Assembly (NCBI RefSeq): GCF_000472385.1
Contig: NZ_AWZU01000019.1
Coordinates: 62,309 to 126,308, forward strand
Reading direction: 5' to 3'
Length of the DNA stretch: 64,000 bases
DNA from: Bradyrhizobium sp. ARR65
Lineage (GTDB): Bacteria > Pseudomonadota > Alphaproteobacteria > Rhizobiales > Xanthobacteraceae
The position numbers were made by a program, and so were the translations under genes. The notes beneath the pieces are model-generated. The model made no database searches and was not told the DNA's origin. It worked only from the letters and a program-made list of their open reading frames with translations. Positions 41,951-53,326 of this stretch are shown here, one piece after another; position 1 is the stretch's first letter; every line of letters begins with the position of its first letter.

Positions 41951-43189
41951 CTAATGCCGGCCGCCGCCAAATCCACCGGGGCCGCCTCCGAATCCGCCGG
42001 GACCGGGGCCCCCACCGGGAAGCGGACCACCCGGGCCGCCGCCGGGAGGCCCTAAATCTCCCGGCCCCGGCGGCATACCGCCAGGAGCAGGAGCAGGACC
42101 AGGACCAGACGGGCCACCCGGCCCGATGGCTTGCCCATGACCACCCGGGCCCCCGGGACCGCCAGGCGGATAGCCGGAGCCGTGGGGCCCACCGCCAGGA
42201 CCGGACATCGGACCCTGAACGCCGCCGGGACCGCGCGGGCCTTGCATCGACGCTCCCGGGAAACTGCTGACAGACTGGACGGATTCGACCCGCAGGCCGC
42301 CCGAACTGTCGCGTACGGCGCTCACGACGACGCGCGCTTCGCCCGACGTCGGCGAAAAGCGCGACACGTCCCGCGCCACATAGCCCGAGCCCAATTCCAG
42401 ATCCGAGCCCGAGCGCCGGACATAGGCCTCGATCAGCAGGCGGCTGGCTCCGGCGAGATCGGAAAGATCATCCGCACGCGCGCGAGAGACCTGCATGACA
42501 CCCTGCGCGAGATGGCCCTCGGCCTGAACGCGCCGCCCAACCAGCGCGGCGTTCACGCCGTTCACGCGCAGTCCGCCAATCCGCAGTTCCCCGCGCTCCC
42601 GTTCAAGCAGGCCCGCGACGCGTGTCGCGTTATCGCGGCGCGGTTCGATCAGGCTTGCGACAACCGCCCCGTCGGTGCGGCGCAGCCCGAAGACCGCGAC
42701 ATGCGTCCCGGCCCGACGCCAGCTTTCACTGCCGGCCGAGATCACCCGCTGGCCGAGCACCGTCAATTCGCCGGCTCTCACATTCTCGATCGGTCCAACG
42801 ACCTCGCTGACTGCGTCGATGCCGCGCGTGGTCAACGTGCCATCGGCCCTGCGTTGGGCGACCACGCGCGCGACCTGTCCGATCCGCAGCGCCTTCGCAG
42901 ATGCCGCCGCCCCATCGATCCGCACCGGCACGTTGGGATCGTAGCTGATGCGCTCGCCATTGACGTAAATGCTCCCGAAACGCTGGATCACGCCGACGAT
43001 GCCGGTGCCACCGATGCCATGATCACCGCCGGTTATTCCGGTGCCGCCGATCCCGTGATCTCCATTGATGCCGGTCCCGCCGATGCCATGGTCGCCGCCG
43101 CGACGGTTCTGCGCCCAAGCGGACGACGATCCTGCGAGCCAAAGTCCCGCGAGCAGAGACCTGCGCGAAATGACCGGCCATTTCGTCAC
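41951..43189 (-). CDS. Exported DUF5666-like repeat protein with Gly/Pro-rich tail
   Basis: A 412-residue protein with a signal peptide (SRRSLLAGLWLAGSSSAWAQ). The mature part opens with three near-identical GDHGIGGTGI repeats. It continues with repeated OB-like units, GVIQRFGSIYVNGERISYD and later GPIENVRAGELTVLGQRV, like DUF5666. The last ~125 residues are almost only Gly, Pro, Ser and a few Met/His (GGPGGPGGHGQAIGPGGPSG), surely disordered. Function is unknown. Its ATG overlaps the stop of the DUF6502-like gene by 4 bp, so the pair is translationally coupled. Such DUF5666 proteins are sometimes suggested to be cell-surface proteins. Confidence 0.75.
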   Translation of the reverse strand: MTKWPVISRRSLLAGLWLAGSSSAWAQNRRGGDHGIGGTGINGDHGIGGTGITGGDHGIGGTGIVGVIQRFGSIYVNGERISYDPNVPVRIDGAAASAKALRIGQVARVVAQRRADGTLTTRGIDAVSEVVGPIENVRAGELTVLGQRVISAGSESWRRAGTHVAVFGLRRTDGAVVASLIEPRRDNATRVAGLLERERGELRIGGLRVNGVNAALVGRRVQAEGHLAQGVMQVSRARADDLSDLAGASRLLIEAYVRRSGSDLELGSGYVARDVSRFSPTSGEARVVVSAVRDSSGGLRVESVQSVSSFPGASMQGPRGPGGVQGPMSGPGGGPHGSGYPPGGPGGPGGHGQAIGPGGPSGPGPAPAPGGMPPGPGDLGPPGGGPGGPLPGGGPGPGGFGGGPGGFGGGRH

Positions 43190-44174: not shown

Positions 44175-44333
44175 ATGCCTCGTCACGACACCGCTCACTC
44201 TCCCAAAGCAGCAGAAAGTGGTTCCACCCGACGCGGCACGGTCGTCGAGGTCATGCTCTCCATCATCGTGCTCGGCGCGCTTCTGATGTTCGCGCTTGCC
44301 CTGCCCTATCTTGCCGGCTGTCTGATCGGTTGA
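44175..44333 (+). CDS. Small single-helix membrane protein at head of glycan cluster
   Basis: A possible 52-residue protein, MPRHDTAHSPKAAESGST... followed by one hydrophobic helix, VEVMLSIIVLGALLMFALAL, and ending LAGCLIG. GGGG lies ten bases upstream of ATG 44175. Its TGA stop overlaps an in-frame TTG of the following glycosyltransferase gene (TTGA at 44330-44333). That is compatible with translational coupling. No homologue is recalled, so coding status is uncertain. Confidence 0.45.
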   Translation: MPRHDTAHSPKAAESGSTRRGTVVEVMLSIIVLGALLMFALALPYLAGCLIG

Positions 44334-44350: not shown

Positions 44351-46270
44351 GTGATCACCTTTCGCCATTTGTCCCGCCGCCCGTCGGTGCTCCACATCTT
44401 CAAGGTCTATTACCCCGACCTGTTTGGTGGAACGCTTTCCGTCATCCGGGCTATCTGCGCGGGTTTGAAGCACAAATTCGCAGCCAACGTGCTCGTCTGC
44501 TCCAAGTCAGGCGGACAACGGCGGCTAATCGTGAACGAGGTGCCGGTCGAGCGCGTGCGCTCGTTCGGGGATGTGCTGTCGCTTCCTCTGGCTCCCACCT
44601 ATCCGTTGCGCCTGTGGCGCCGCATCGCAGAGCATGATCTACTGGCGCTGCATGCGCCGTTTCCGCTCGCCGATCTCGTCTTCGCGCTGGGATTTGCGCG
44701 GAAGCGGCCTCTGGTCGTTCATTGGCATGCCGACATCGTCTCTCATTCCTCGCTGCGGTGGCTGGTGCAGCCGTTGATGCGGCGAACGCTGCAGCGGGCG
44801 AACGCGATCATCGTGTCCGATCGCGCGCTGGCAAGCGGCACGCCGCTGCTGCGCGAATTTGCCGACAAATGCCACGTCGTGCCGTTCGGCATCGATATCT
44901 CCAAATATGAGTGGCCACCGCGGCGGCCTCCTCACGTCAATGGTCGCGGACGCCTTGTGCTCGCCTGCGGCCGGCTCGTTCCCTACAAGGGTTTTGACGT
45001 GCTGGTGCGTTCGGCGGTCAACCAGAGTTTCGAGGTGTGGATTGTCGGCGAAGGTCGCGAGCGCGAGCGCCTCGAACGGCTGATCCGCGAACTCGGTGTT
45101 CAGGACCGTGTGCGCCTGCTCGGCTCCGTTCCGGATGACGAACTCGCAAAGTTCATGTGCATCGCGGATGTGTTCGTTATGCCGTCAGTCACTGATGCCG
45201 AAACCTTCGGACTGGTGCAGCTCGAAGCGATGGCCGCAGGCCGTCCGATCATCAATACCTCGCTTGATACCGCCGTACCGCATGTCGCCCGCGACGGCAT
45301 CGAGGCGATCACCGTGCCGCCGCGCGATCCAACGAGACTTGCGGAGGCGATCAACAGCTTGATCGCCGATCCGGAACGCCGACGCCGCATGGGCGATGCC
45401 GCACGGCATCGCGCCGCGACGAAATATTCCACCGCTGCGTTCCAAGAGGGGATCGAGGAGGTTTATCGGCAAGCGATAGCCTCACGGCAACCGGCCCGCA
45501 CTTTGCGATCGCCGACGACCGGCTTGCTCGGCGCGATGCGGATCGCGGCGGCGCTGGCCTGGTCCGACATGCGTCACCGCTATGTGCGCTCGCTGCTCGG
45601 TCCGTTCTGGATGTCGATCCAGATGGCGATCATGGTCGCGGTGCTGGGATCGGTGATCGGCCATTTCTCGGCCGGCAGTACCATCTCGCGCCTGCCCATG
45701 CTCGCGCTCAGCCTGACCGCCTGGAATTTCCTCAACAGTGTCGTGCTCGATTCCACCACGGCGCTGCAGGACTCGGCGAGCCTGATCAGGGATCGGGCCT
45801 TGTCACCGGTCATTTTCCTGCTGCAGTGCTGCTTCCGGCAGGCATTGTTCGCCCTGCACAATCTCTCCGTGCCGTTGCTCCTCTGGCTGGTCCTGAGCCC
45901 GATGGATCTCAAAGCGGTGCTCGCCGCCCTTCCAGGATTTGTACTTTTCGTCGCCTGTACGTTCGGACTGAGCCTTGTCGTCGGTGCCGTGGCCACGCGC
46001 TTCCGCGATCTGAAGCCGATTACCGAATCGACGTTGACGCTGGCCTTCCTGTCCTCGCCGGTCATCTGGTCGCCGGCGATGGTCAATCAGGGTTCCTCCA
46101 TCATGCGCCTCAATCCGCTGACGCACCTGTTCGCTGTCTGGCGCGAGCCCTTGGCGAACAGCCATGTTCCGATGATCAGCATCGCCTATGTGCTGGTGTG
46201 CCTTGCCGCGCTTGCGCTCGCGGGCTGGCTCACCGTTGTCCACCTGCGCAGAGCCGCGTTCTGGATCTGA
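44351..46270 (+). CDS. GT4 glycosyltransferase fused to ABC-2 polysaccharide-export permease
   Basis: One uninterrupted 639-codon frame from GTG 44351. Residues about 10-380 form a GT-B, GT4 glycosyltransferase: LHIFKVYYPDLFGGTLSVI, VLACGRLVPYKGFDVLV, and the E-x7-E motif in DAETFGLVQLEAMAAGRPI. Residues 396-639 form a full-length Wzm/TagG/KpsM-like ABC-2 permease: MRIAAALAWSDMRHRYVRSL, LGPFWMSIQMAIMVAVLGSV, six hydrophobic helices and an ending VVHLRRAAFWI. The join (SPTTGLLGAMRIAAALAW) shows no stop or frame change. An internal ATG at 45536 has no ribosome-binding site. The start is uncertain, with TTG 44330 possible. The ATPase gene follows after two bases. Confidence 0.82.
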   Translation: MITFRHLSRRPSVLHIFKVYYPDLFGGTLSVIRAICAGLKHKFAANVLVCSKSGGQRRLIVNEVPVERVRSFGDVLSLPLAPTYPLRLWRRIAEHDLLALHAPFPLADLVFALGFARKRPLVVHWHADIVSHSSLRWLVQPLMRRTLQRANAIIVSDRALASGTPLLREFADKCHVVPFGIDISKYEWPPRRPPHVNGRGRLVLACGRLVPYKGFDVLVRSAVNQSFEVWIVGEGRERERLERLIRELGVQDRVRLLGSVPDDELAKFMCIADVFVMPSVTDAETFGLVQLEAMAAGRPIINTSLDTAVPHVARDGIEAITVPPRDPTRLAEAINSLIADPERRRRMGDAARHRAATKYSTAAFQEGIEEVYRQAIASRQPARTLRSPTTGLLGAMRIAAALAWSDMRHRYVRSLLGPFWMSIQMAIMVAVLGSVIGHFSAGSTISRLPMLALSLTAWNFLNSVVLDSTTALQDSASLIRDRALSPVIFLLQCCFRQALFALHNLSVPLLLWLVLSPMDLKAVLAALPGFVLFVACTFGLSLVVGAVATRFRDLKPITESTLTLAFLSSPVIWSPAMVNQGSSIMRLNPLTHLFAVWREPLANSHVPMISIAYVLVCLAALALAGWLTVVHLRRAAFWI

Positions 46271-46272
46271 CC

Positions 46273-47013
46273 ATGCCCGGCATCCGTTTGCGCAACGTCT
46301 GTCTCGATTACCCGCTCTATGGCGCCTACGACTTCTCGCTCAAGCGCCGCCTCCTCGCGCCGCTGATTGGGGAGACAAGCACCGCGCGAACGATCCGCGC
46401 CATCGACGATCTGTCGCTCGAAGCGACAGCCGGCGCGCGCATCGGCCTGTTCGGCCCCAACGGCTCCGGCAAATCGACGCTGCTGAGGCTGATCGCCGGC
46501 GTCTACCCGGCGACCAGCGGCCAGGTCGAGGTTACCGGCAGCGTCATGCCATTGCTCGGTCTGAACGCAGGCGCCAATCTGGACTTCGTCGCGGCGGACA
46601 ATATCAGCCTGCTGCTGCGCATCGGCGGGCGAAAGCCGACACCGGCGATCGTCGACGAGATATGGGCCTTCACCGAGCTCGAAGAACGCATGCGGCAATT
46701 GCCGCTGCGCATGTTCTCTTCGGGCATGCTGATGCGCGTTCTGTTCGCCACGGCCACGGCGTTTCCGGCCGACATCCTCCTGCTCGACGAGTGGCTCAGC
46801 GTGGTCGACGAGAACTTTTCGGCCAAAGCCGAACAGAGGCTCCTGAAACTCGTCTCGATGGCCGCCATCGTGATCATCGCCTCCCATGACCAGGGACTGC
46901 TGCAGCGCACTTGCACCAGCATCATCAAGCTCGATCACGGCCATATCGTCAGCACCATCCCGATCGATCAAAATCCCGCCCGCCAGAAAGACCTGCGAGA
47001 GAAGCGCGCATGA
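46273..47013 (+). CDS. ABC transporter ATP-binding protein, polysaccharide export (Wzt/KpsT-like)
   Basis: A 246-residue ATPase that would energise the fused permease. It starts MPGIRLRNVCLDYPLYGAYD. Walker A is FGPNGSGKSTLL, Walker B is ILLLDEWLSVVDE, and the switch histidine is in IIASHDQGLL. The signature motif is MFSSGMLMRV rather than LSGGQ, as is normal for Wzt/TagH-type polysaccharide exporters. There is no C-terminal carbohydrate-binding domain, so it is the short KpsT/TagH type. ATG 46273 is two bases after the fusion gene; its stop overlaps the next gene (ATGA). Confidence 0.92.
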   Translation: MPGIRLRNVCLDYPLYGAYDFSLKRRLLAPLIGETSTARTIRAIDDLSLEATAGARIGLFGPNGSGKSTLLRLIAGVYPATSGQVEVTGSVMPLLGLNAGANLDFVAADNISLLLRIGGRKPTPAIVDEIWAFTELEERMRQLPLRMFSSGMLMRVLFATATAFPADILLLDEWLSVVDENFSAKAEQRLLKLVSMAAIVIIASHDQGLLQRTCTSIIKLDHGHIVSTIPIDQNPARQKDLREKRA

Positions 47014-48437
47014 AGAAGATACTGGTCGTCAGCGAAGCGCTCGGCGAGCCGAACCACAAGCGCGGCATCTTTCACTTCACCCGCGAGCTGGTCCGGTCGC
47101 TGGCCGCCGAGGGCCACGAGCTCACCCTGCTGGTCGAAACCACGCGCCGCTATCGCCGGCTGCGACGGCGGCAGCGGCGAACACCGCTCTTTCCGGCGGA
47201 CTCGCGCGCGATCGAGCTGTTGGCGCTCTACCGCTTTCTGGACGAGACCAACATGACCGAGCCGATGATGCGGAGCACCCTGCGCCGCACGATCGCCTGG
47301 TTCAGGCAGCGGATTCATCTCGCCACCTCCTGGGAATTCGCCTCCTGCTTCCTGCGGGCCATCGGGCTGTCGGGCCTGCGCGCCAGACTGATCGAGAACA
47401 ACACCATCGGCCTCGAATACATCCCGACCGATCTGCGCCATCTCAAATGGTTCCGGGATTTCCTGCTCGAGCCCGGATTTTACAGCTATCAGGATATGTC
47501 GGCGCTGCTGCGGCTGCCTGCGCCACGGATCGATGCGCGCGGCTACGACATCGTTCTGGTGGACACGCCCACGCGAGTTGCGATCACACACGATCCCGAT
47601 ACCCGGGTCATCTGCGTCGTCCATGATCTCTTGCCTCTGACCGATCTCAGACTGAGCGACGTCGCGACGCGCCTCTTTTTGTCGCGCCTGCTGACCAGCC
47701 TGCACCAGGCGGACGAACTGGCATTCGTCTCGAACTACAGCATGAACCGGTTCAGGGAGCTGCTTCCGCAATTCGCGCACCTACCCGCCCGCGTGGTCTA
47801 TCCGCGCACGCGCTTTGATGCATCGGACCCGATGCAGCCTATGCCGGCCGCAGCCCGCTCCGCGCAGCCTACCTTCGTCATCATCGTGTCGGCGGAGCCC
47901 CGCAAGAACCTGAACTCGGTGATCCGTGCCTTTCGGAAGTTGCCGCACGCCGACCTAGTCGTGATCGGCTATACCGGTGCCCCACAACCGATCCGGAATT
48001 TGCCGCCGAACGTGCGGCTTGCAGGCTATGTCGACGAACAGGACAAAGCGGCGTTGATCGCCGAGGCGCATGGCCTGATCATGCCGAGCTTCGCGGAGGG
48101 ATTTGGTGTGCCGATCATCGAAGCTCTGGCCGCAAATACGCCGGTGTTGTGCTCGGACATTCCGGTGTTTCGCGAAGTGGCGGGCGAGCTCGCGGACTAC
48201 TTCGACCCCTTCTCGACCGAATCGATCTGCGCATCCGTCACGCGGGTCCTGGCGCAGCAGACGGAATGGCGAAACAAGATCCGGGCACGGCGCGAGGAGC
48301 TGGCCCAGCGCTTCGGCTACCAGACCCAGGCCCGCGATTTCCTCGCACACCACGCCGGCCCCGAAAACGTGATTGCTCTGGCCAAGACCTCCGCGCCATC
48401 TGCCGCGCTCGACGATCTCGCCACGCATGGGACTTGA
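47010..48437 (+). CDS. Glycosyltransferase family 4 protein
   Basis: A 475-residue GT-B glycosyltransferase. The N-terminal Rossmann domain begins KKILVVSEALGEPNHKRGIFHFTREL. The C-terminal donor-binding domain has VIIVSAEPRKNLNSVIRAF and the motif SFAEGFGVPIIEALAANTPVLCSDI, with the E-x7-E pair. An insertion at about residues 80-180 (LYRFLDETNMTEPMMRSTLR...) makes it longer than a usual GT4. There is no signal or membrane segment. It overlaps the ATPase gene by 4 bp and would act in the cytoplasm on the lipid-linked glycan. Confidence 0.88.
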   Translation: MKKILVVSEALGEPNHKRGIFHFTRELVRSLAAEGHELTLLVETTRRYRRLRRRQRRTPLFPADSRAIELLALYRFLDETNMTEPMMRSTLRRTIAWFRQRIHLATSWEFASCFLRAIGLSGLRARLIENNTIGLEYIPTDLRHLKWFRDFLLEPGFYSYQDMSALLRLPAPRIDARGYDIVLVDTPTRVAITHDPDTRVICVVHDLLPLTDLRLSDVATRLFLSRLLTSLHQADELAFVSNYSMNRFRELLPQFAHLPARVVYPRTRFDASDPMQPMPAAARSAQPTFVIIVSAEPRKNLNSVIRAFRKLPHADLVVIGYTGAPQPIRNLPPNVRLAGYVDEQDKAALIAEAHGLIMPSFAEGFGVPIIEALAANTPVLCSDIPVFREVAGELADYFDPFSTESICASVTRVLAQQTEWRNKIRARREELAQRFGYQTQARDFLAHHAGPENVIALAKTSAPSAALDDLATHGT

Positions 48438-48460: not shown

Positions 48461-49804
48461 ATGACCGTCGAACCTGGACCGTCGCGCGCCGCTGCCCCGC
48501 CGGCTCACTGGCTTGAGCAGTTCGGCGCTTGGCGCTGCTCGGCGACCTATCTCTACGCAACCGATATGCTGGTCGTGCTGACGGCGGCCTCGCTGCCGTG
48601 GTCGACGACTGCGCCAACCGTTTTCATTTTGCTCTGGCTGTTCCTCGTCCTTCCCCTCATGGATTGGAAGGCGTTCGGCGGCAGCCTGCTGCATCCCACC
48701 GCTGCCCTGCCACTTGCATTCTTCGCGCTCGCCACGATCGGCACTCTCTGGTCGGACGCCGCATGGGCTGCACGCCTGCACGGCATCAACCCGGTTTCCA
48801 AGCTCCTGCTCATTCCTTTCCTGCTGTACTTTTTTCAGCGGTCGCGCCGCGGCCTCTGGATCCTCATCGCCTTTCTCGCCTCCTGCGCCCTCTTGCTGCT
48901 TCTATCCTGGATCGTGCTGTTCGATCCGGCGCTGAAGATCGCAGCGACCGTGTCGGATGGTGTTCCAGTGAAGAACTACATCGACCAAAGCCAGGAGTTC
49001 GCGCTCTGCATCTTTGCCCTGGCTTATCCGGCCTTGGTCGCCGCGCGCGAGCGACGCTTACCGACTCTGCTCGGCCATCTCGTGCTGATCCTGGCCTTTC
49101 TCGCCAACATGCTGTTCGTCGTTTCGGCCCGGACCGCGTTGATCTATATGCCAGTGCTTCTGGTGATGTTTGCCGCGCGGTACCTCGATCGGCGCACGGC
49201 TCACGCACTGCTCGCCGCGATCATCGCTGCCGGCCTGCTGGTCTGGACGACGTCGCCCTACTTGCGCAAGCGGATCGGCGATATCACGATCGAATATCAG
49301 GCCTACGAGACCAACACCCTGGCGTCGACGGCGCAACGGCTGACCTATTGGCGCAAATCCATCGGATTCATTGCCCGCGCCCCGCTGCTCGGCCACGGTA
49401 CCGGCTCGATCGGGTACCTGTTCGAGCAGGACGCGATCGGAAAGACCGGCTTGCGCGCGGATGTGGTGAACAATCCGCACAATCAGACCCTCAACGCCGC
49501 GGTGCAATGGGGGCTGCTCGGCGTTATCGTCCTCTACGCGATGTGGCTGAGCCATCTCCTGCTGTTTTCCGGGCGAGATCTGGCGACATGGATCGGGCTC
49601 GTGGTCGTGGTGCAGAATCTCGTGAGCTCGCTGCTCAACTCGCATTTGTTCGATTTTCACGAGGGCTGGATGTACGTCCTGGGCGTCGGCATCGCCGGCG
49701 GCTTATCGCTGCGGGACCGCAGCTACACCAGCCAGCCAAATCTCAGTGCAAGGTCGACGCATTCCGAAGTCAATGGCTCGCCGCGTGCCCGACCTCACCG
49801 GTGA
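48461..49804 (+). CDS. O-antigen ligase / Wzy-type polymerase family protein
   Basis: A 447-residue polytopic protein with about ten to twelve membrane helices. It has the Wzy_C region expected of O-antigen ligases or polymerases: VVSARTALIYMPVLLVMF, ASTAQRLTYWRKSIGFIARAPLLGHGTGSIG and the conserved NNPHNQTLNAAVQWGLLG, with the histidine important in WaaL. Because export is by ABC transporter, a ligase transferring the glycan to lipid A core or another acceptor is more likely than a polymerase. The final 35 bp overlap the opposing solute-binding protein gene. Confidence 0.83.
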   Translation: MTVEPGPSRAAAPPAHWLEQFGAWRCSATYLYATDMLVVLTAASLPWSTTAPTVFILLWLFLVLPLMDWKAFGGSLLHPTAALPLAFFALATIGTLWSDAAWAARLHGINPVSKLLLIPFLLYFFQRSRRGLWILIAFLASCALLLLLSWIVLFDPALKIAATVSDGVPVKNYIDQSQEFALCIFALAYPALVAARERRLPTLLGHLVLILAFLANMLFVVSARTALIYMPVLLVMFAARYLDRRTAHALLAAIIAAGLLVWTTSPYLRKRIGDITIEYQAYETNTLASTAQRLTYWRKSIGFIARAPLLGHGTGSIGYLFEQDAIGKTGLRADVVNNPHNQTLNAAVQWGLLGVIVLYAMWLSHLLLFSGRDLATWIGLVVVVQNLVSSLLNSHLFDFHEGWMYVLGVGIAGGLSLRDRSYTSQPNLSARSTHSEVNGSPRARPHR

Positions 49805-51005: not shown

Positions 51006-51154
51006 CGCAACCTCCCGACCGCATTTTCTTTTACCGGCAGTCTCGCAAGACCCGCTTTACCTGGCAAGCATTGCTTATCCCGTGCCGCGAAACAGCATTG
51101 TTGCCTGTCCACATTTATGATTGATGCAAGCGGAGCAACCGGGGGTTTTTGATT

Positions 51155-53326
51155 TTGGAACTGAAGAGACGGATTGGCCCGCGACATCCGCGCCTTGGCA
51201 AGGCCGCATTTGATTTCGCGCGTTGGCTGGCCAGGCATACGATGGGGCGAGCCGGCTTCCATCAGCTCGGCTCGCACTTTGCCAAGGAGCGCCTCGCGCT
51301 CGCGCGGCAAAAACTCGCCCGCGGCGAAGCGCTCTATCTTGCAGGGATCGGCGCACCGGGCACGCATAATTCGGGCGTGGCGCTGGTGGAGGTGACGCAA
51401 GCGAACGGCCCCCGACTTTTGCTCAACAATGAGGAAGAGCGCTTCTCCGGCAACAAACACACGTCGGAATTTCCGCAAAAATCGATTGATGCGATGGCGG
51501 CGCTTCTGCGCGACATGGGGCGCGACGTCACCGATATTTTCGCCTGGCTGACCTCTTGGGACTATCCAACGCTGGCCGGCACCATGTTCCGCTCGCTGCT
51601 GGAGGAGTTTCCGCAAAGCCTGAAACTGGCGCGGCGGCTTGAAGCGACCGGCTTCGACGGGCGGCGCATGGACGAGATGACGCGGACACCGAAAAAGCTG
51701 GCGCGGCAGCTCGGCCTCGCTGATCCTGTTCAGTTGATCACGCTACCGCACCACGACAATCACGCCTGGTTTTCGTTCGCCGCCTCGCCCTTCAGAGACG
51801 ACGGCGAGCCGGTCGCACTCGCCGTGCTCGACGGCACCGGCGACCTCGGATCGATCTCGCTCTATGTCATCAAGAACGGCGCGATGCAGCGGCTCTATTG
51901 CAACGAGAGCATCTTCGACTCGCTCGGCGCCTTCTACAGCGTGATCTCATCGACCCAGGGCGGCTGGACCTGGCTCTCCAGTGAAGGGCGTTACATGGGC
52001 GCCGCCGCGTGGGGCGACATGAGCCGCGCCAGTAATCCCTATTATGCGCGGTTGAAGCGGGTGCTGCAGCTCGAGCCCGATGGCGAGGTGCGGCTCAACC
52101 GGGCCCTCGCCAACTGGTATTGCGACCCGTTCGAACATCCCTACAAACGCGCGCTGATCGAGATTTTGGGCGAGCCGCTCAAGCCCGACCAGCTCTGGAA
52201 TCCCGACGCGGTGCTGCGGGTCGAGGATATCGAACACAGGCCCGACACACAGGACCGCCTGGACAAAGCGGCTGCGACGCAGCTCGTATTCGAGGACGCG
52301 ATGATCCATGTGGTGGATCATTTGTTGCGCGTCACGGGCGCCCACCGCCTAGTGCTCACGGGCGGCGTCGCGCTCAATGCGCTGGGGAATATGCGGCTGC
52401 TCGAGCATTTCGATGAAGCCTGGTTTGCGCAGAACCAAGACCGGAACGCACGCCTGCATCTGTGGGTGCCGCCCGTGCCGGGCGATGCCGGCGTCACCAT
52501 GGGCGCCGCCTGGCTGTTCGCGCATCTTGCCGGCAGCCCGCGCGGCGCGCCGCTGACGCATGCGTTCTATTGCGGCACGCCGCCTTCGCGCGCCGAGATT
52601 GAGGCGGCAATCGACGCAGACGACGTTGCCTCACAGCGCATCGGCGATATCTCCACTGTCGAGGGCCGCGAGGCTATCGCCGACCTGATGGCCTTCATCA
52701 TTGCGAAAGACGGCGTGATCGCGCTCTACCAGGGCGCCGCCGAAACCGGCCCCCGCGCGCTCGGCCATCGCTCGATCCTGGCCAATCCCTGCGATCGCCA
52801 TGCCCGCGAGAAGCTGAACGAGCGCGTCAAATACCGGGAGGCGATCCGCCCGCTCGCGCCGATGGCAACGCTGCAAGCAGCGCAGGACTATTTCGAGCTG
52901 GAGGAAGGCGCCTCCGACGCCGGCTACAATGCCTATAACTACATGGTGCTAACAGCGCATTCGAAGCCGCACGCGCGGGCGAAGATTCCAGCCGTCATTC
53001 ATGCCGACGGCACCGGACGCATCCAGATCGTCCGCGAAGCCGACGATCCCCTCACCTATACCTATTTGAAGGCGCTCGGCCGCCGCATCGGCGTCGAGAT
53101 ATCCGTCAACACCTCGTTCAATGTCGCTGGTCCCATCGCACAGACGCCGCGACAAGCGATCGAGACGCTGCGCCGCTCCAGGGGGCTGGATGCGGTGTTT
53201 CTGGTAGCGAGTGATGGCGCGGTCTACGCGGCCTGGCACGGCGGTCCGCGCGACAGCGGGCGATTCAGGAGCTGGTTCGCGGAGTGGCAGGCCGGGCGTG
53301 AAGAGCCTACGGCCGGACCAGCCTGA
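51155..53326 (+). CDS. NodU/CmcH-family O-carbamoyltransferase
   Basis: About 723 residues. Carbamoyltransferases of this family transfer carbamoyl from carbamoyl phosphate to hydroxyl groups; NodU does so on Nod factors. The N-terminal Kae1-like domain has LAGIGAPGTHNSGVALVE, HHDNHAWFSFAASPF and VLTGGVALNALGNMRL. The C-terminal half has ALYQGAAETGPRALGHRSILANP, REAIRPLAPMA and VSVNTSFNVAGPIAQTP. About 50 residues precede the usual N-terminus. The start is uncertain: TTG 51155 fits the GGGGG ribosome-binding site. Its neighbourhood suggests carbamoylation of a surface glycan. Confidence 0.85.
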   Translation: MELKRRIGPRHPRLGKAAFDFARWLARHTMGRAGFHQLGSHFAKERLALARQKLARGEALYLAGIGAPGTHNSGVALVEVTQANGPRLLLNNEEERFSGNKHTSEFPQKSIDAMAALLRDMGRDVTDIFAWLTSWDYPTLAGTMFRSLLEEFPQSLKLARRLEATGFDGRRMDEMTRTPKKLARQLGLADPVQLITLPHHDNHAWFSFAASPFRDDGEPVALAVLDGTGDLGSISLYVIKNGAMQRLYCNESIFDSLGAFYSVISSTQGGWTWLSSEGRYMGAAAWGDMSRASNPYYARLKRVLQLEPDGEVRLNRALANWYCDPFEHPYKRALIEILGEPLKPDQLWNPDAVLRVEDIEHRPDTQDRLDKAAATQLVFEDAMIHVVDHLLRVTGAHRLVLTGGVALNALGNMRLLEHFDEAWFAQNQDRNARLHLWVPPVPGDAGVTMGAAWLFAHLAGSPRGAPLTHAFYCGTPPSRAEIEAAIDADDVASQRIGDISTVEGREAIADLMAFIIAKDGVIALYQGAAETGPRALGHRSILANPCDRHAREKLNERVKYREAIRPLAPMATLQAAQDYFELEEGASDAGYNAYNYMVLTAHSKPHARAKIPAVIHADGTGRIQIVREADDPLTYTYLKALGRRIGVEISVNTSFNVAGPIAQTPRQAIETLRRSRGLDAVFLVASDGAVYAAWHGGPRDSGRFRSWFAEWQAGREEPTAGPA

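Follow-up and report, generated by a model that had tools for sequence, protein, structure and literature searches.

In Bradyrhizobium sp. ARR65 we found a GT4 glycosyltransferase and the membrane permease of a predicted ABC polysaccharide exporter encoded in one polypeptide, a fusion shared by more than one-third of the sampled genomes of Bradyrhizobium, a major genus of plant symbionts. This arrangement suggests that the building and export of a surface glycan are physically coupled. The window is the whole stretch of DNA analyzed, 64,000 nucleotides of contig NZ_AWZU01000019.1 from a genome of 8.6 Mb.

Domain organization of the fusion gene

The open reading frame runs on the forward strand from a GTG at 44351 to a TGA at 46270 and codes for 639 amino acids with no internal stops; the start is supported by a start codon at about the same position in 28 named relatives. 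It comprises a glycosyltransferase (GT) half (44384 to 45475, residues ~12 to 375), a linker (45476 to 45538, residues ~376 to 396) and a Wzm-type permease half (45539 to 46267, residues ~397 to 639). Pfam models were matched above their curated cut-offs on both sides of the linker, Glyco_trans_4_4 at residues 26 to 180 and Glycos_transf_1 at 197 to 354 (PF13579 and PF00534) in the GT half and ABC2_membrane at 401 to 596 (PF01061, 39.7 bits, cut-off 26.9) in the permease half, and domain models for GT4 and permease were matched by all 29 fused copies scanned. The AlphaFold prediction of the GT half is of good confidence for the most part and can be matched to solved GT4 enzymes along nearly all of their length, and the permease half aligns with residues 64 to 296 of a solved permease of 307 residues; hence, both halves are complete. 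For the permease half, predicted with only 29 close sequences as input, pLDDT is mostly below 50.

The GT half carries the motifs HWHAD, GRLVPYKG, and EX7E (E284 and E292). Residues E284, E292, K213, and R208, which include the EX7E pair and the donor-binding K, are invariant in the 29 fused copies. By its domain matches and its predicted structure, the half is a GT4 glycosyltransferase of GT-B fold. The first-pass annotation of the window had read here a complete GT4 enzyme and a complete Wzm-like permease in one frame, with a short junction near residue 390, and the domain matches and the linker agree with that description.

Distribution of the fusion

A near full-length fused frame without stop is present in 69 of 195 Bradyrhizobium genomes, the window's own included; the copies reach residue 639 in 68 of them, and the remaining one (G180) ends at the contig end. 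The other copies of the genus are 72 to 76% identical to that of the window, and the 28 named loci with the fusion are all from Bradyrhizobium. The GT half occurs alone in two genomes of the genus (69 and 62% identity), while in 124 the module is absent, with nothing above 46% identity in the match list. Outside the genus, one further fused copy (67% identical) was found in a family sample of 198 genomes (G286), and the fusion was not found in the other two genomes of its genus.

These copies leave practically no chance that the fusion is an artifact produced by a frameshift in sequencing or by an overlooked start at the junction. All that speaks for such an error is one ATG of the window copy that lies in frame close to the junction; this ATG is not conserved among relatives, and the frame is open in independent genomes; the fusion is therefore genuine and no sequencing slip. 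A stop or frameshift at the junction, or close relatives in which the halves are always separate genes, had been named in the first-pass annotation as signs against it. Instead, the junction is open in all 69 genomes, and searches with both halves found fused as well as split homologs, of which the fused ones are the nearest relatives and the separate ones lie at 39 to 46% identity.

Between relatives, the length of the linker can differ by as many as 9 residues. In at least three copies (L030, L035, and L037), there is no ATG, GTG, or TTG from approximately residue 367 to residue 416; with no start codon near the junction, their permease can be made only as part of the fusion. Over 406 pairs, pN/pS is 0.33 for the GT half, 0.32 for the permease half, and 0.80 for the linker, values that indicate similar purifying selection on both halves and weak constraint on the linker.

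Beyond the family, no fusion other than the window's own was found among the matches listed for 297 genomes of the order, 289 of the class, and 398 of the phylum, samples that overlap and were searched with different thresholds. In the class and phylum samples, nine long frames that surround Wzm matches were rejected as candidates since they matched ABC-2 permease models only and none matched a GT model; two shorter frames, of 455 aa in G816 and of 387 aa in G773, lack the length for both halves. Among 72,556 plasmid records, 59 match, and none covers more than 80% of the query. We found no description of a GT-permease fusion in the open-licence PMC literature, as represented largely by titles and abstracts.

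Gene context and type of exporter

Two nucleotides downstream of the fusion starts a Wzt-type ATPase of 246 aa (46273 to 47013, forward strand; PF00005, 65 bits, cut-off 25) with the letters of Walker A, a signature-like motif, Walker B, and the H-loop. It aligns with a solved ATPase over residues 4 to 227 and ends 19 residues past the match, too soon to include a carbohydrate-binding module at the C terminus; the absence of this domain from the partner ATPase had been noted in the first-pass annotation. A second predicted GT4 glycosyltransferase of 475 aa (47010 to 48437, forward strand), whose first 4 nt are shared with the end of the ATPase gene, is followed by a membrane protein with a Wzy_C domain, of the O-antigen ligase/polymerase type (48461 to 49804, forward strand, 447 aa from its ATG). 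The ATPase and the second GT4 follow the fusion in all 28 named loci and Wzy_C in 26 (the exceptions are L046 and L047), and a divergent DUF6502 gene lies upstream in all 28. Judging from these neighbors, the module is kept at a fixed chromosomal place, which sets it apart from the O-antigen clusters of B. japonicum and B. diazoefficiens, strain specific according to the portion of PMC4070871 consulted. Of the signs of an LPS O-antigen pathway, a Wzy_C gene is present next to the exporter genes, but the window genome has five Wzy_C places over the cut-off, and in other strains the O-antigen ligase identified with mutants adjoins homologs of rfaD/E/F (PMC4743980, in the part drawn on here).

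Considering the permease domain and the ABC motifs of the ATPase, the module is predicted to be an ABC-2 polysaccharide exporter of the Wzm/Wzt type, which presumably exports a lipid-linked glycan, and the length of the ATPase assigns it to the kind without a carbohydrate-binding module, like that of Klebsiella O2a. The best structural matches of the fused permease (E 2.6e-29) are PDB 9qfx and related chains, which from their molecule names we take to be the mycobacterial galactan exporter Wzm-Wzt (NF050109/NF050108), and the galactan Wzt is also among the best structural matches of the partner ATPase; against the equivalog model NF050109, the fused permease scored 137.8 bits, below the cut-off of 380. 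The galactan exporter likewise has no carbohydrate-binding module, but its permease and GT are separate proteins, and the mycobacterial GlfT enzymes belong to a GT family other than GT4. GlfT2 has been proposed to interact with Wzm-Wzt and in this way to set the size of the galactan (PMC10951656, in the sections used here). In Klebsiella O2a, whose Wzt lacks the module as does the ATPase found here, export is described as tied obligatorily to the extension of the chain in the excerpts of PMC11231755 used throughout this work. That coupling is noncovalent, between products of separate genes that include a polymerase, WbbM, with two GT modules, unlike the fusion.

Origin of the fusion and fate of the GT-only genes

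The GT tree was built with 15 of the 30 fused rows and the permease tree with 8. In the former, all 15 fall into a single clade (96/96) together with the two GT-only genes, which branch inside it at two supported places. This nesting rules out the GT-only state as ancestral and points to one fusion followed by two losses of the exporter. Both GT-only genes are open frames, one of 418 aa in L077 (7597 to 8853 of that locus, reverse strand) and one of 415 aa in L078 (7822 to 9069, forward strand). At their sites, no homologs of Wzm, the second GT, or Wzy_C were found, and in L077 there is a weak ATPase match (30%) 4 kb from the gene.

R208 is conserved as arginine in all 29 fused copies and in each of 12 separate sister GTs, and both GT-only genes have lost it, although it is not universal in GT4, since one aligned solved GT4 enzyme lacks it. 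At 74 deeply conserved positions, the GT-only genes deviate 6 and 10 times, versus once for the fused copy of G286, whose divergence equals that of the GT-only gene with six. Of 153 positions invariant in fused copies, L077 breaks 10 and the other GT-only gene 30, versus 8 for the fused G286 copy (L079), and a fused row excluded from the invariant set breaks up to 11 of 164 (L049). Compared with fused copies, pN/pS of the GT-only genes is 0.35 and 0.45, indicating purifying selection, so the GT may be useful without the exporter. A change in their role after the loss of the exporter is suggested by these patterns, and no more than suggested.

The sister GTs (39 to 46% identity) are separate genes, of which 13 were examined out of at least 25 found in the genus and family samples. 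Wzm and Wzt lie beside the GT in 12 of the 13 stretches and directly downstream in the order GT-wzm-wzt in 8, counts that include five stretches (L080 to L084) selected because both halves had matches. Among the eight picked by GT match alone (L057/L087, L058, L059/L088, L061, L063, L064, L089, and L090), seven have Wzm and Wzt directly downstream, the Wzm matches of L057 and L059 being weak (26 to 27%). For more distant GTs (23 to 33%), Wzm was on the same stretch in two of nine. Since most of the sister GTs examined directly precede wzm-wzt, the fusion joined genes of a normally adjacent kind.

The permease has a different affiliation. It clusters at 100/100 with the separate Wzm of G540, which belongs to a different family within the order, while the permeases beside sister GTs form their own 100/100 group, apart from it, with that of L088 outside; this tree is rough, with long branches and unsettled bootstrap, and only its 99/95 and 100/100 groupings were used. 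Thus, two lineages of exporter seem to have served as partners of the GT family. Separate GT-wzm-wzt sets of the same bacterial family (L057 to L064, L080, and L090; sister GT 41 to 46%) resemble the module in gene order and in their short ATPases and differ in being unfused, with permeases of another clade. A search with NF050109 over 14 handles, two of which are the same place, found the fusion together with a separate Wzm in the window genome (G000), BTAi1 (whose fusion locus is L049), the genomes of L036 and L046, and G286, and as the only match in the genomes of L028, L042, L045, and L047; four other genomes searched lack the fusion. The window genome also has, on contig C98 (L083, 9.6 kb), a sister GT (46%) and a Wzm/Wzt pair, all separate genes, with the GT on one strand and the pair on the other.

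This history also feeds the strongest rival reading, in which an adjacent GT and wzm merged by chance and the two domains work freely, the tether having no special role. Such a join would be an easy accident, since in L061, L063, and L090 Wzm may start inside the GT gene, the two sharing 4 nt at the GT stop, and in L064 Wzm can start 3 nt past the GT stop in the same frame. The variable, weakly constrained linker and the single evolutionary occurrence fit this reading too. We nevertheless consider it somewhat unlikely, given that the fused state has persisted while the 69 sampled genomes diverged, and in another genus, and that the samples contain no case of the same orthologs split again into two intact genes.

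Proposed function of the fusion

The reading that we prefer, and to which we give an even chance, is a covalently coupled synthesis-export unit, with GT4 and Wzm in one protein of a module-free exporter. The exporter would consist of two fused chains and two Wzt subunits and would then carry two GT active sites on the face toward the cytoplasm; in known exporters the N terminus of Wzm is cytoplasmic, and the GT attached to it would be a cytoplasmic domain at the exporter entrance. There, the fused GT, if active, and the second GT4 of the operon would add sugar to a lipid-linked chain that would be passed straight to the channel, coupling extension to export. The fusion would hold enzyme and permease at 1:1, fixing the ratio of extension to export, as proposed for module-free exporters, and the Wzy_C protein may ligate or polymerize the product.

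Several observations argue for the coupled unit: the frame kept across Bradyrhizobium and in G286, the copies whose permease can be made only fused, the similar constraint on both halves, the constant presence of ATPase and second GT4 downstream, the sister GTs adjoining Wzm/Wzt, the ATPase without binding module, and the loss of R208 in both GT-only genes. The coupling described for the module-free O2a (PMC11231755) and proposed for galactan (PMC10951656), as far as the portions used of both sources go, points the same way. Against it, the GT-only frames persist under purifying selection, L077 breaks hardly more invariant positions than the fused L079, R208 is missing from a solved GT4 enzyme, the variable linker could leave the GT free to act, and 124 of the 195 genomes of the genus manage without the module.

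Two other roles for the fused GT were considered. The first-pass annotation proposed that it adds the last sugar and that this sugar is the export signal, replacing the carbohydrate-binding module. The location of the GT at the exporter and the short ATPase would suit this idea, and in other Klebsiella serotypes terminal sugars read by the binding module are export signals (PMC11231755). However, the ATPases of nine systems with a separate GT homolog (eight sister GTs and one more distant) are equally short, so lacking the module is nothing peculiar to the fusion, and O2a exports without such a signal, with export coupled to extension (PMC11231755). A last-sugar signal is thus possible but not favored, and in our opinion quite improbable; what stands of that annotation is the fusion and the short ATPase, not the missing module as a pointer to the signal. 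Alternatively, the fused GT could be an adaptor that attaches the first sugar, or the second, to the lipid carrier and recruits the exporter as the pathway begins, leaving polymerization to the second GT4. The two GT4 genes in one operon would allow it, and adaptor GTs such as WbbO and ORF10 are normal in ABC-dependent pathways (PMC11231755), but a tether to the exporter would be less useful at the first step, and we regard this role as very unlikely.

How ABC exporters without the module recognize their substrates is unsettled, and a GT-transporter complex has been proposed for O2a and galactan. A natural covalent GT-permease makes such coupling directly testable by splitting the protein and offers a stable 1:1 object for structural work. 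A bolder version of the coupled unit is an ATP-driven "synthase" in which every sugar addition feeds the polymer directly into the ABC exporter and chain length follows from the fixed GT:exporter ratio. Cellulose and hyaluronan synthases also combine a GT and a membrane channel in one polypeptide, but theirs are a GT2 enzyme and a non-ABC channel, versus GT4, an ABC-2 permease, and an ATPase here. The fusion would then be an independently reached counterpart of these synthases, which we judge to be rather unlikely.

Other features of the locus

Directly upstream of the fusion, a possible small protein of 52 aa (44175 to 44333, forward strand) has one hydrophobic segment, a putative single transmembrane helix, and no Pfam match. 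Small ORFs that end approximately 9 to 24 nt before the fusion start are found in at least 23 of the 28 named loci and share a recurring C-terminal pattern, LPALLR...F...LA.PFV.AL; in L033 there is one farther upstream. On the other side of the module, a carbamoyltransferase gene (51149 to 53326, forward strand; PF02543 and PF16861, with a distant NodU match below the cut-off) lies near it in many relatives, albeit not in all. The protein encoded at 41951 to 43189, on the reverse strand, matches DUF5666 weakly, contains the segment GDHGIGGTGI in repeats, and ends in a tail rich in Gly and Pro.
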